A stretch of DNA of 64,000 nt from Nitrosopumilus adriaticus (GTDB lineage: Archaea > Thermoproteota > Nitrososphaeria > Nitrososphaerales > Nitrosopumilaceae): positions 1,482,147 to 1,546,146 of the forward strand of contig NZ_CP011070.1 of the NCBI RefSeq assembly GCF_000956175.1, read 5' to 3'. Positions 30,137-57,112 of this stretch are shown here, piece by piece. The translations under genes were made by a program, and so were the position numbers. Positions within the stretch are counted from its first letter, which is position 1. Each line of letters begins with the position of its first letter. The notes below the pieces were generated by a model that did not search any database, was not told where the DNA came from, and worked only from the letters and a program-made list of their open reading frames with translations.

Positions 30137-31114
30137 TTAGTTCAGAAAATCAAACACAGAACCCAAATTTGAAAATACTAAACCAATTTCATCAAACAAG
30201 GAAATTGGTTTTTCCTTTTCATGATTTGAAGTACTAGTAACTTTCGGCAATACATTTTCAGAGTAATCTATTTTTTTGATACTTGGTTGTACTGGCTTAT
30301 CAACTAAAGTTACAATTGGAGTGTTTAATGAATCTGCAATTTCAAGATTTTTTCTTGCTGAATTATAGTTTGGATTTTTCTTTAAAATTTCTTCATAAAT
30401 TGAAATAGCTTTTTCATAATCTTTCAAATTTGCAAGTGCATTTGCCTTGTTATTTTTGGCAGGTAAGAATTCGGGATTGATTTTGATAGCATGTTCATAG
30501 TAGATTAGAGCCTCAGTGAAATATCCCAATTTCCCCAAGGCAGAGCCTTTGTTTACTAGAATTTCCACATCGTTTGGATTTTCAGTTAGGGATTGATTAA
30601 AGAATTCCAAAGATCCATCAAAATCACATAATCTATACAGTGCAGGGCCCATTCCATCATAGTAAGATATAGTATCAGTAAACATGCTTTTGTCACATTC
30701 CAAATTAATTTGGTTTAGAATTAGTCCCAATTCAATATCCTCAACAGTAAGATTTGTTTGTTTTTTGATTTCAGTTGGAATGATTTTTTCTTGAATAGTT
30801 TTTTTGATTTCAATTGTATTAGATTTTGATTCAGAAGTTGGAGGAGTTTCTTTAATTGCAGACGTTATAATGGAATTCGAATTATCAATTGTTTCTTCAA
30901 TTGTTTCTTCAATTGTTTCTTCAATTGTTTCTTCAATTGTTTCTTCAATTGTTTCTTCAATTGTTTCTTCAATTGTTTCTTCAATTGTTTCTTCAATTGT
31001 TTCTTCAATTGTTTCTTCAATTGTTTCTTCAATTGTTTCTTCAATTGTTTCTTCAGATACAATTTGAGGCTCCTTATAATAATCAAAAAAAAGATATTGC
31101 TTCAGATTCCCCAT
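30137..31114 (-). CDS. C-terminal part of a frameshifted surface TPR protein
   Basis: Contains a 14-copy Glu-Thr-Ile-Glu tract encoded by the 12-nt repeat, a linker, then three TPR-like units (GMGPALYRLCDFDGSLEFFN, ALGKLGYFTEALIYYEHAIK, ALANLKDYEKAISIYEEIL). Its nominal start lies inside the coding region of the upstream frame. Removing one base from the T8 tract at 31085-31092 joins it to 31083-31751 as one protein of 537 residues. The separate start is therefore probably not real. Protein-protein interaction at the cell surface is likely. Confidence 0.65.
   Translation of the reverse strand: MGNLKQYLFFDYYKEPQIVSEETIEETIEETIEETIEETIEETIEETIEETIEETIEETIEETIEETIEETIEETIDNSNSIITSAIKETPPTSESKSNTIEIKKTIQEKIIPTEIKKQTNLTVEDIELGLILNQINLECDKSMFTDTISYYDGMGPALYRLCDFDGSLEFFNQSLTENPNDVEILVNKGSALGKLGYFTEALIYYEHAIKINPEFLPAKNNKANALANLKDYEKAISIYEEILKKNPNYNSARKNLEIADSLNTPIVTLVDKPVQPSIKKIDYSENVLPKVTSTSNHEKEKPISLFDEIGLVFSNLGSVFDFLN
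30889..31056 (-). repeat. 14 tandem copies of a 12-nt coding repeat
   Basis: Plus-strand unit TTGTTTCTTCAA is repeated 13 times perfectly, with a 14th differing in one base. The unit length is a multiple of three, so copy number changes keep the frame and alter the number of Glu-Thr-Ile-Glu units. Other frames are open as well, so they look like genes on the opposite strand but are not. Confidence 0.95.
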
Positions 31115-31751
31115 AATGGGCTTTTATTGAATAAGTTCCCTCGGTTCTAAAATTAACACCATCTTTTACAAGAAAGCTAGTTGAGAATTCCAGATCAGAA
31201 TTTATTGTTCCAAAATAAAACCCAGCAGGCATTCCAAATGGATCATAAACTCCAATCAACGAAGTTGGCGAACCTAGCGAAGAAACAAGACCTGTGATAT
31301 GTATAGTATCATTGTCAGCGTATTGATTTTGGTCAGTGTAAAGAAGAAAGATTTCTGGTTCTTCATTTACCCGAACTGGAATTTCAGGTGCGGAATAATC
31401 CCCTACAGTGAAATAATGATTATCAGAGATTTGTCCATAGTCTAATTTTATTTGGTATTCCCCAGTTTTTTCATAAAATGGAGAATCAAGTTGAATGGTT
31501 TTTGTAAATGTTTTTTCAGATGAGATTTCCAAATTATTTGCAGACAAAATTTTCCCATCAGGATCATAGATACTCATAGCAATTACTGGCATTCCAAAAT
31601 CAAGAATTTGGCCTGAAATAGTAAGAGAATCACCTGTGTTGTAGGATTGTTTATCTGTACTTACCAGAAATGTTTCGGCAAAGGCATCAGAGAAGACTAG
31701 AGGAGATAATACGGTTAACACTAAGGTAATTCCAATTAAATATCCTAACAC
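31083..31751 (-). CDS. N-terminal part of a frameshifted secreted surface protein
   Basis: 222 residues. Signal peptide LGYLIGITLVLTVLSPLV, with cleavage near AFA-ET. Two beta-sandwich repeats follow: LVSTDKQSYNTGDSLTISGQ and LYTDQNQYADNDTIHITG, the same domain type as in the PEFG proteins at 41-44 kb. The frame stops at 31083 directly after Phe-Phe encoded by the T8 tract. In the other frame it would continue as FFDYYKEPQ into the TPR portion. Confidence 0.7.
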   Translation of the reverse strand: MLGYLIGITLVLTVLSPLVFSDAFAETFLVSTDKQSYNTGDSLTISGQILDFGMPVIAMSIYDPDGKILSANNLEISSEKTFTKTIQLDSPFYEKTGEYQIKLDYGQISDNHYFTVGDYSAPEIPVRVNEEPEIFLLYTDQNQYADNDTIHITGLVSSLGSPTSLIGVYDPFGMPAGFYFGTINSDLEFSTSFLVKDGVNFRTEGTYSIKAHYGESEAISFF

Positions 31752-31802: not shown

Positions 31803-32984
31803 TCATTCCACTGTAATTAAACTCGACATTATTGGTGCTAGCACAGTTGGATCGCCAAGAGAGTTCCAGACAAATGTTTCAATGGCGTAATTTCCAGAGT
31901 TTTTTGGGATCCATGATTGTGAAACATCAAGACTTTGTCCAGACGATAATTCACCTTGAACCCATGAGATAGACTCTACAATATTATTTTCGTTTTTAAC
32001 TTGAATCAAGTAAACAAATTTCTGATCAAATTCATTTGGATTAACTATAGTTCCAACTATTTGTAATGAATTATCAGGTGAAAAGGATTCTAGAGAATTT
32101 CCAAGTGCATCAGAAAATTGGATTGGGAGATTATCAATTCTATCTATTGGAGGAATTGATGAATCAACCAAGGCAAAAGTTTCAAGGGCTAAATTATCTG
32201 AGACGGAATATGGCTTTGGTAAAGTATAATCATCATATTTTGCAGAGATTTTATCACCAGGAATCGAATACAGTCTACTTCCACTGGTAGTTGAACTTTG
32301 AGATAAGGAAAAGGTTGCCACAAACATACCAGAACTTTCTGATGTCTCAATTCCATCAACTTCAAATCCTGCAATATCAGAATCAGATGAAATTTGAATT
32401 GGAATATGATCTAGTGCTTCAGGATTGAGATTCATATCTGAATCAATGATGCGTACAGTTACAATTTCATCTAAGAGATAAACTTCTTGAGTGAATTGAA
32501 TAGTTCCAGCATTCCAACGTACAGGTGCAGATTCAGTTAGGATTACACCATCTGCAAATTCAAATGATATTGTAACTGCCGAATCCCTATCGACTTCTAA
32601 AAATCCACTAGTAGGACCAGTGCCCATGGTTCTCGGAGTTGTGTCAATAGTTCCATCACCATCTACATCATGCGCAAATCCTGTAAGTATTACTTCAGCT
32701 GTAAAAATTCCAGAATTTACATCAGTCTCTGTAAATCTATAAGGCTCTAGCGAATGCTCTCTTGTGGAAATTTTAATGGGATGGTCTTGTGTATTTCCTA
32801 TTGAATCAATCAAATCTTTATCAGTATTCCAACTAGGAGCAATGATTGTCATCTTTATTTTGTCAGTCCAAGAGTAGAAGGGTTTGTCTGTAAATATCGG
32901 AGAGTATGGTTTATCATAATCAGGAATTGATTCTCCAAATGCTGGAAATAAAATCAATGGAACTATGATGAAAAAAAGATACAT
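31803..32984 (-). CDS. Secreted beta-sandwich surface protein
   Basis: About 393 residues from ATG 32982-32984 (a start 15 bases earlier is also in frame). A signal peptide (MYLFFIIVPLILFPAFG) is followed by domains like those of thaumarchaeal S-layer-type proteins: ETDVNSGIFTAEVILTGF, DSDMNLNPEALDHIPIQISS and ETSESSGMFVATFSLS. The last 120 residues form an Ig-like domain ending QSWIPKNSGNYAIETFVWN. It carries no PEFG tail. Part of the block inserted into the RNA polymerase/ribosomal operon. Confidence 0.75.
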   Translation of the reverse strand: MYLFFIIVPLILFPAFGESIPDYDKPYSPIFTDKPFYSWTDKIKMTIIAPSWNTDKDLIDSIGNTQDHPIKISTREHSLEPYRFTETDVNSGIFTAEVILTGFAHDVDGDGTIDTTPRTMGTGPTSGFLEVDRDSAVTISFEFADGVILTESAPVRWNAGTIQFTQEVYLLDEIVTVRIIDSDMNLNPEALDHIPIQISSDSDIAGFEVDGIETSESSGMFVATFSLSQSSTTSGSRLYSIPGDKISAKYDDYTLPKPYSVSDNLALETFALVDSSIPPIDRIDNLPIQFSDALGNSLESFSPDNSLQIVGTIVNPNEFDQKFVYLIQVKNENNIVESISWVQGELSSGQSLDVSQSWIPKNSGNYAIETFVWNSLGDPTVLAPIMSSLITVE

Positions 32985-33028
32985 GTGAATAATTAACAAA
33001 TATTGAATTTAATGTTTGATAGAATAAT

Positions 33029-48622: not shown

Positions 48623-49399
48623 TTGGAAATTGATAAAATCCTAGAATCACTAAGTGCTGGAAAGATATCAGTTAACAATGCAAAAAAACTTCTTTCATTA
48701 TATTCAATTGAAGAGGTAGAAGGATTTGCAAAAATTGATATCAATAGAAGTAAGAGACGTGGAATTCCCGAAGTGATTTTTGCTGAAACCAAAGAAATTG
48801 AAGAGATTAAAAAAATTGTGAAAAAAACTTTAGAAAAATCAAATTCAGTATTAATTTCAAGAATTAAGAAAAAGGACTATCCAACAATTTTAGCATTTGC
48901 TAAAAGATTAAAAATTACAATTAAAACTGGAAAAAATTCATCTACCTTACTATTATTTAAAAACCCAATTTCATTTCATGGAGGAAAAGTAGGAATTCTT
49001 ACTGCAGGAACTTCAGATATAGGAGTTGCAGAGGAATCTAGATTGATGTGCGAAGCGATGAATTGTAAATGCATAACAGGATATGATGTTGGCGTTGCAG
49101 GAATTCAAAGAATTTTTCCAATTTTAAAAAAAATGATTAAAGAGGATGTAGATTGCATAATAGTTGCTGCAGGGATGGAGGGGGCTTTGGCAACACTCGT
49201 TTCATCTATGGTAGATATTCCAATAATAGGAATTCCAACATCAGTGGGATATGGATATGGAGAAAAAGGAATTGCTGCATTAGCATCAATGCTTCAAAGC
49301 TGCTCATTGGGGTTATCAGTGGTTAACATAGATAACGGAATAGCTGCCGGAGGAATTGCTGCAAATATTGCAAATAGAACAATTAGAAAAAAGGATTAA
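48623..49399 (+). CDS. larB: LarB, pyridinium carboxylase
   Basis: 258 residues from TTG 48623. LarB carboxylates and hydrolyses nicotinic acid adenine dinucleotide to begin nickel-pincer nucleotide synthesis. The C-terminal half is PurE-like: ILTAGTSDIGVAEESRLMCE, VGVAGIQRIFPIL, VAAGMEGALATLVSS and GIPTSVGYGYGEKGIAALA. It shares the locus with larC and larE but lies on the other strand, behind mdh with 33 bp spacing. An A8 tract near 49130 is in frame. Confidence 0.93.
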   Translation: MEIDKILESLSAGKISVNNAKKLLSLYSIEEVEGFAKIDINRSKRRGIPEVIFAETKEIEEIKKIVKKTLEKSNSVLISRIKKKDYPTILAFAKRLKITIKTGKNSSTLLLFKNPISFHGGKVGILTAGTSDIGVAEESRLMCEAMNCKCITGYDVGVAGIQRIFPILKKMIKEDVDCIIVAAGMEGALATLVSSMVDIPIIGIPTSVGYGYGEKGIAALASMLQSCSLGLSVVNIDNGIAAGGIAANIANRTIRKKD

Positions 49400-55731: not shown

Positions 55732-56361
55732 ATGATTAGAATTATTAAAAATATGGAAATGTTTGTACAAAGGACCAAAGTATTAAAAATTTCATTAGTA
55801 GCTATATTTTCGGCATTTTTAGTAGAATTAATTTTTGGTTTAATCTCAAACAGTCTAGCCCTCATTACAGATGGTATTCATGCATTATTGGATAGTGTGG
55901 TAACAATGGTCTTGTTATTGGCTGCAAGAATGGCAATGAAACCAGCTGATGCAGAGCATACCTACGGACATGGAAAAATTGAGTCATTAGGAGGTATGAT
56001 TGGAGGAATTGCAATTTTTTTGATTGCATGTTTTTTTATTTATGAATCGATTCACAGACTACAAAGTCCACCCCCAGCAATATTGCCAGGATTGTTTGCA
56101 ATCGTTGCAGGGCTGTACACAATCGGTATTGATATTTTTAGAATAGGGCTATTAAGAAAATCAATGAAAAAAAATCGGAGGGGCCACTCTCAAAGCAGAT
56201 TTCTATCACGCATTTATGGATCTTGGATCTACTCTAGTTGCAATAATTGGAATAATTCTTGTTTCATATGGATTATACTTTGGAGATTTTGTTGCAGCGT
56301 TAATACTAGGAGGATTATTAGCTGTACTAAGCATCAAACTAGTCTACAAAACTGCACTTGA
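55732..56361 (+). CDS. CDF metal exporter, N-terminal part before frameshift
   Basis: Cation diffusion facilitator that exports Zn2+, Co2+, Fe2+ or Mn2+. This frame holds the first membrane helices, with metal-site residues in ALITDGIHALLDSVV and HTYGHGKIESLGG. After an A8 tract at 56167-56174 the frame becomes nonsense (RRGHSQSRFLSR onward). Deleting one A restores KIGGATLKADFYHAFMDLGS and joins 56216-57112 as a 459-residue protein. Confidence 0.8.
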   Translation: MIRIIKNMEMFVQRTKVLKISLVAIFSAFLVELIFGLISNSLALITDGIHALLDSVVTMVLLLAARMAMKPADAEHTYGHGKIESLGGMIGGIAIFLIACFFIYESIHRLQSPPPAILPGLFAIVAGLYTIGIDIFRIGLLRKSMKKNRRGHSQSRFLSRIYGSWIYSSCNNWNNSCFIWIILWRFCCSVNTRRIISCTKHQTSLQNCT

Positions 56362-57112
56362 TTTAACAGACATCATATCACCAGAACTTGTAAAAAATGT
56401 AAAGGAAATTGCAATATCAACTGACGGTGTAATTAATGCAGAACCAATATTGATGAGAAGATCAGGTGAGACAATTTTTGCAGACATTACCATATCATTA
56501 AGAGGAGACACTAGTTTTGATAAAGCGCATGAAATAAGTAATAATGTTGAAGCTAACATAAAAAATGAAATTTCAAATTCAGCAATTACAGTACATTTTG
56601 AGCCTAATTGGCAAGATGTTCCACTAGATGCAAAAATTCTAGAAATTGCAAAAGGAGTTGAAGGTGTAAAAGATGTTCATAATGTAAGTACGCATAAAAC
56701 CAAAGGAAGAACATTTTCAAATTTACATGTAATGGTTGACCGAAAAATGGATCTTTTATCTGCACATAAAATTTCTGAAGTTATTGAAGAAGAAATTCAC
56801 AAAAATATTCCAGAAATAGAGCATGCTACAATTCATTTAGAACCTTTTGTTAAAATACCAGAAAATTTCAACTTGGAAGACAAAATTACTGAAAATCAAA
56901 TTAAAAGAATATTAGAAAAATATTCAGAAATTAAAAAGATTGGAAGGATAGTATCTTTGAATTTTGAAAATATTCTAAAAATTGATATCGATTGTTCCTT
57001 TGACAAAGACTTGTCGATAGAAAAAGTTCATGATTTGATTTCAGAGATAGAGCATGAAATCAGGACTAAGATAAATGATTCAGTGATAACAATTCATCCA
57101 GAACCAGTCTAA
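56216..57112 (+). CDS. CDF metal exporter, C-terminal part after frameshift
   Basis: Starts within the last membrane helices (MDLGSTLVAIIGIILVSYG; LILGGLLAVLSIKLVYKTA) and continues into the cytoplasmic ZT-dimer domain. That domain is repeated about three times (VINAEPILMRRSGETIFADI, VKDVHNVSTHKTKGRTFSNL and IGRIVSLNFENILKI). The native start is in the other fragment; the ATG at 56216 is internal. Three cytoplasmic repeats make this longer than most CDF proteins. Confidence 0.8.
   Translation: MDLGSTLVAIIGIILVSYGLYFGDFVAALILGGLLAVLSIKLVYKTALDLTDIISPELVKNVKEIAISTDGVINAEPILMRRSGETIFADITISLRGDTSFDKAHEISNNVEANIKNEISNSAITVHFEPNWQDVPLDAKILEIAKGVEGVKDVHNVSTHKTKGRTFSNLHVMVDRKMDLLSAHKISEVIEEEIHKNIPEIEHATIHLEPFVKIPENFNLEDKITENQIKRILEKYSEIKKIGRIVSLNFENILKIDIDCSFDKDLSIEKVHDLISEIEHEIRTKINDSVITIHPEPV

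Follow-up and report, generated by a model that had tools for sequence, protein, structure and literature searches.

A split gene for a predicted secreted Ig-like/TPR protein in the Nitrosopumilus adriaticus assembly: probably one intact gene and a homopolymer length error at a T8 tract

The window analysed here is a stretch of 64,000 nucleotides from Nitrosopumilus adriaticus (contig NZ_CP011070.1). On its minus strand, the open reading frames 31083-31751 and 30137-31114 form the N- and C-terminal halves of one protein, broken at a T8 tract (31085-31092; A8 on the plus strand). The minus strand of the junction reads GAA GCA ATA TCT TTT TTT TGA TTA TTA TAA GGA GCC. The upstream frame ends at the TGA, whose T is the eighth T of the tract, and the downstream frame, one base later, reads on as FFDYYKEPQIVSEETIEE... 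(= ...FFDYYKEPQ). In ORF 30137-31114 as listed, the residues before FF are the N part read out of frame; after rejoining, the 222 residues of the N part and another 315 make a protein of 537 residues. Neither half has any further lesion besides the T8 tract. In relatives with 60-88% identity, both parts are encoded in a single frame, and therefore the two-part match is not due to chance. These results agree with the original prediction, which took the two frames for parts of one protein, pointed to the stop immediately after T8, and obtained a continuous FFDYYKEPQ and 537 residues with one T fewer. The possibility that the downstream ORF has a start of its own was weighed and discarded. There is an AAGGAG between the two parts, but the suitably spaced TTG is out of the downstream frame, and such a start is also contradicted by the single frame in all relatives. 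Relatives with two separate genes at this locus were looked for and none was found, the junction being in frame in all 52 relatives in which it could be read.

The N-terminal part (31083-31751) has a signal-peptide-like start. In the AlphaFold model (mean pLDDT 80, pTM 0.45), a hydrophobic signal-like helix is followed by two seven-strand beta domains, for which the Foldseek matches are Ig-like or of macroglobulin type, with TM-scores that are low across the domain pair. The Pfam search of this part gave no family above its cut-off; MG2 stayed below threshold (25.9 bits, cut-off 32.8), and the fold is Ig-like. The C-terminal part (30137-31114) consists of a repeat linker, TPR repeats and a C-terminal tail. 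The TPRs are above the curated cut-off (PF07719, E = 1.3e-18, in three stretches; also PF00515 and PF13181). Ig-like repeats, ETIE repeats and TPRs had all been claimed from the sequence beforehand, and they were recovered by AlphaFold and Foldseek, by a 12-bp array and by Pfam, respectively. As modelled, the gene product, whose biology is ordinary to mildly interesting, is secreted and combines two Ig-like domains with TPRs. It resembles the TPR, macroglobulin-like and Ig-like families of secreted proteins in its significant TPR matches, its two Ig-like domains and the sub-threshold MG2 match, but those families lack the species-specific repeat linker seen in this protein. The upstream neighbour on the same strand (31803-32999), which is intact here, we take to be S-layer-like from general knowledge of Nitrosopumilus genomes and without a family match. 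It is ~43% identical to parts of genus-wide proteins with open frames of ~1700 amino acids, and its counterparts have internal stop codons in three genomes (G034, G035 and G082).

The linker carries a perfect in-frame tandem array of a 12-bp unit, (ETIE)n, with 14.2 copies at 30885-31055 on the minus strand. When TRF was applied to 53 linkers following FF[DE]Y (the orthologous linkers are L009-L078), an array was detected in 38, with at least 4 copies in 25 of these. All array periods are divisible by three and range from 12 to 45 bp. Many arrays are perfect at the DNA level, and the maximum is 58.6 copies of a 15-bp unit (L064 in G092). The ETIE/DETI unit is common to N. adriaticus (G000) and its near relatives G036, G073 and G093, and the units of more distant relatives are unrelated to it (TPTDQP, ETTTD, EPVVK, DTKDDPA, TQTTEDT and VVKDD). 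The comparison marks the linker as a minisatellite hot spot and suggests that in-frame repeats have arisen and expanded there again and again; their putative function would be to give a stalk of variable length.

The orthologue is present in about half of the 95 genus genomes, and nearly half gave no full orthologue. Among the 52 relatives with a readable junction, the tract is T3 in 12, T4 in 3, T6 in 13 and T7 in 24, and the frame is kept in every case, including all 24 with T7. The N. adriaticus genome is the only one with T8 at this junction, one base more than the longest tract in any relative. In about 40 relatives, the reading frame stays open until the TPRs end, and in a few others the contig stops inside the repeat array. 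The tract length follows the codons used, TCT TTT TTT giving T7 and TCA, TCC or TCG before TTT TTT giving T6, which makes the tract a side effect of encoding Ser-Phe-Phe rather than a switch that is being maintained. This bears directly on phase variation, in which slipped-strand mispairing at the T tract would toggle the full protein on and off. The protein is predicted to be secreted, the tract adjoins a tandem array, and A/T tracts of at least 7 are a recognised route (PMC3711429); as in bacterial phase-variable surface genes, a surface protein has a homopolymer inside its coding region, and on and off frames are possible. However, unlike in those genes, the tract here is short and not conserved: it is below 7 in 28 of the 52 relatives, none of the 52 is in an off state at the tract, the Ser-Phe-Phe codons account for it, and unit gain or loss in the adjacent 12-bp array cannot shift the frame. 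We consider a switch of this kind very improbable.

A recent real one-base insertion, either as a pseudogene or as a culture mutation, could also have inactivated the gene in this strain. In that case, a secreted Ig-like fragment would be left without the repeats and TPRs. The orthologue is broken independently at other places in five genomes: by a TAA nonsense change in G032, by a single-base change where the repeat array begins in G010 (a single-cell genome), at the end of the array in G035, near the TPRs in G034, and in N. salaria BD31 (G008) by a T7 in place of the expected T6. The S-layer-like neighbour is damaged as well in G034 and G035. The gene can therefore truly be lost, which keeps the mutation alive as a rival, and the many genus genomes without a full orthologue count on the same side. 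So do three internal-stop candidates of N. adriaticus against its closest relative, G036, in the genes at 1286060, 1351593 and 1449628 of G000:C1, which are a dienelactone-hydrolase-like gene, a coiled-coil gene with lysine-rich repeats and one gene with the stop near its N-terminus. They may reflect real decay, and they indicate that the lesions are not all in homopolymers. Some other internal-stop hits looked like shadow ORFs and were set aside.

Frameshifts were then counted in 464 kb of N. adriaticus around the window, compared with G036 (90% DNA identity in aligned blocks). The ORFs of G036 gave nine breaks in N. adriaticus, and seven were left after two short, probably spurious ORFs were dropped. 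On inspection, each of the seven was confirmed as an A/T run altered by a single base, among ~382 genes with a match. The reverse comparison, with ~389 G036 genes, gave zero confirmed single-base A/T-run frameshifts (Fisher p = 0.007). The seven sit at runs of 5 to 10 bases; four runs are one base too long and three are one base too short. Two of the seven lie in the window, at T8 and in the CDF transporter described below; the other five were located in hemC (hydroxymethylbilane synthase; A8, near 1362071 of G000:C1), an HD hydrolase (A8, near 1348972), a Trm5-type tRNA methyltransferase (A10, near 1571377) and two sensor histidine kinases, named from sequence motifs (runs T7 and A5; positions near 1446478 and 1312779). 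Over equal lengths, A/T runs of at least 9 bases number 7 in N. adriaticus and 29 in G036 (p = 3e-4). In smaller samples of G093, G094, G055 and G026, no frameshift of the A/T-run kind was confirmed. Hits at 242674 and 255783 in N. adriaticus, together with four in G036, were rejected because they were probably antisense ORFs, shadow ORFs or reciprocal images; G036 also has a short out-of-frame stretch in its own ORF 109627.

The window itself contains a second break of the same kind as that at T8. A CDF-family cation transporter gene on the plus strand (55732-57112), whole in nearly all relatives, is split by A8 at 56167-56174 into ORFs 55732-56361 and 56216-57112. The earlier remark that disruption at such tracts is not universal holds, since two of the eight 8-mer A/T tracts in the window are out of frame, but this A8, which breaks a conserved gene, had been missed. 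Another A8 given at 49130 is present and actually lies at 49126-49133. In G007, a complete genome, one frameshift of the A/T-run type was found, in the CDF gene at G007:C1:615278-616626 (L137). This gene is split at another A run, which lacks one base (A7 for the expected A8), and the N. adriaticus genome is thus not alone in having run frameshifts.

The breaks in hemC and the Trm5-type gene affect genes expected to be essential. hemC is split by the run only in N. adriaticus, where the sole good matches are the two halves. In ~80 other genomes a single open frame matches essentially all of it, and in the remaining genomes it is absent, cut by contig edges or more weakly matched. Likewise, the Trm5-type gene is split only in N. 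adriaticus and has a single frame in ~90 other genomes. If hemC did not work, a growing strain would lack tetrapyrroles such as cobalamin precursors. The cell must either be free of these frameshifts or repair every one of them in expression, and the first is far simpler. A real mutation at T8 offers no account of the matching breaks in hemC and the Trm5-type gene and has no second lesion in either half of the gene to point to; we regard it as rather unlikely, although it is the likeliest of the rivals.

Repair in expression would be a form of recoding, by transcriptional slippage on T8 or by +1 ribosomal frameshifting at UUU UGA, either of which would yield the full protein; frameshifts at A/T runs might even be tolerated throughout the genome. 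A +1 slip at UUU UGA permits full re-pairing, and the logic of the site is similar to that of prfB. Both have a UGA after a codon able to re-pair at +1, but in contrast to programmed frameshifting in prfB, no stimulator was found here and the frame break is conserved in none of the 52 relatives. Bacterial examples of slippage on A/T runs are known (PMC1088944). Against recoding, correcting the other N. adriaticus frameshifts would take slips both forwards and backwards, at runs between 5 and 10 bases long. Recoding at T8 is thus very doubtful, and we give equally little credence to the broader proposal that the frameshifts of hemC, the Trm5-type gene, the CDF gene and the T8 gene are real and tolerated through transcriptional slippage, as a frame-repair habit throughout the genome of a free-living archaeon.

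In our judgement, the locus probably holds one unbroken gene, which encodes a secreted Ig-like/TPR protein, with the eighth T as a homopolymer length error of the assembly. Since the same one-base slip splits genes expected to be essential in the same assembly, a sequencing error is most likely and not a switch. The original prediction had listed it beside phase variation and slippage; of these options, it gained from the like splitting of hemC and the Trm5-type gene, and the other two lost ground as the tract is not conserved. The sequencing or consensus step would have been off by one base in the length of an A/T run, shifting the frame and placing TGA directly after the run; the cell's own T run is most likely shorter and in frame. 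Homopolymer indels are described as the predominant error type of long-read data (PMC12007338), and where a frameshift occurs in one genome only and its homologues are full-length, a sequencing error is mostly to be expected (PMC3711429). The occurrence of runs both too long and too short, and the depletion of A/T runs of at least 9 bases, also speak for the error. With gene-fragmenting homopolymer assembly errors (e.g. PMC12007338), the present case shares scattered single-base changes in A/T runs that split conserved, essential genes. Our literature search found no paper joining Nitrosopumilus, homopolymer and frameshift. The likeliest ranking places the homopolymer length error first and the recent real mutation second.

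When the seven frameshifts per 464 kb are extrapolated to 1.8 Mb, the result suggests ~25 false frameshifts in a genome that is complete and on a single contig, that of a marine ammonia oxidiser. Such errors would have consequences for pseudogene calling, for proteome searches and for inferred metabolism, including tetrapyrrole synthesis through hemC. If the frameshifts were real instead, the organism would present a striking case of frame repair.
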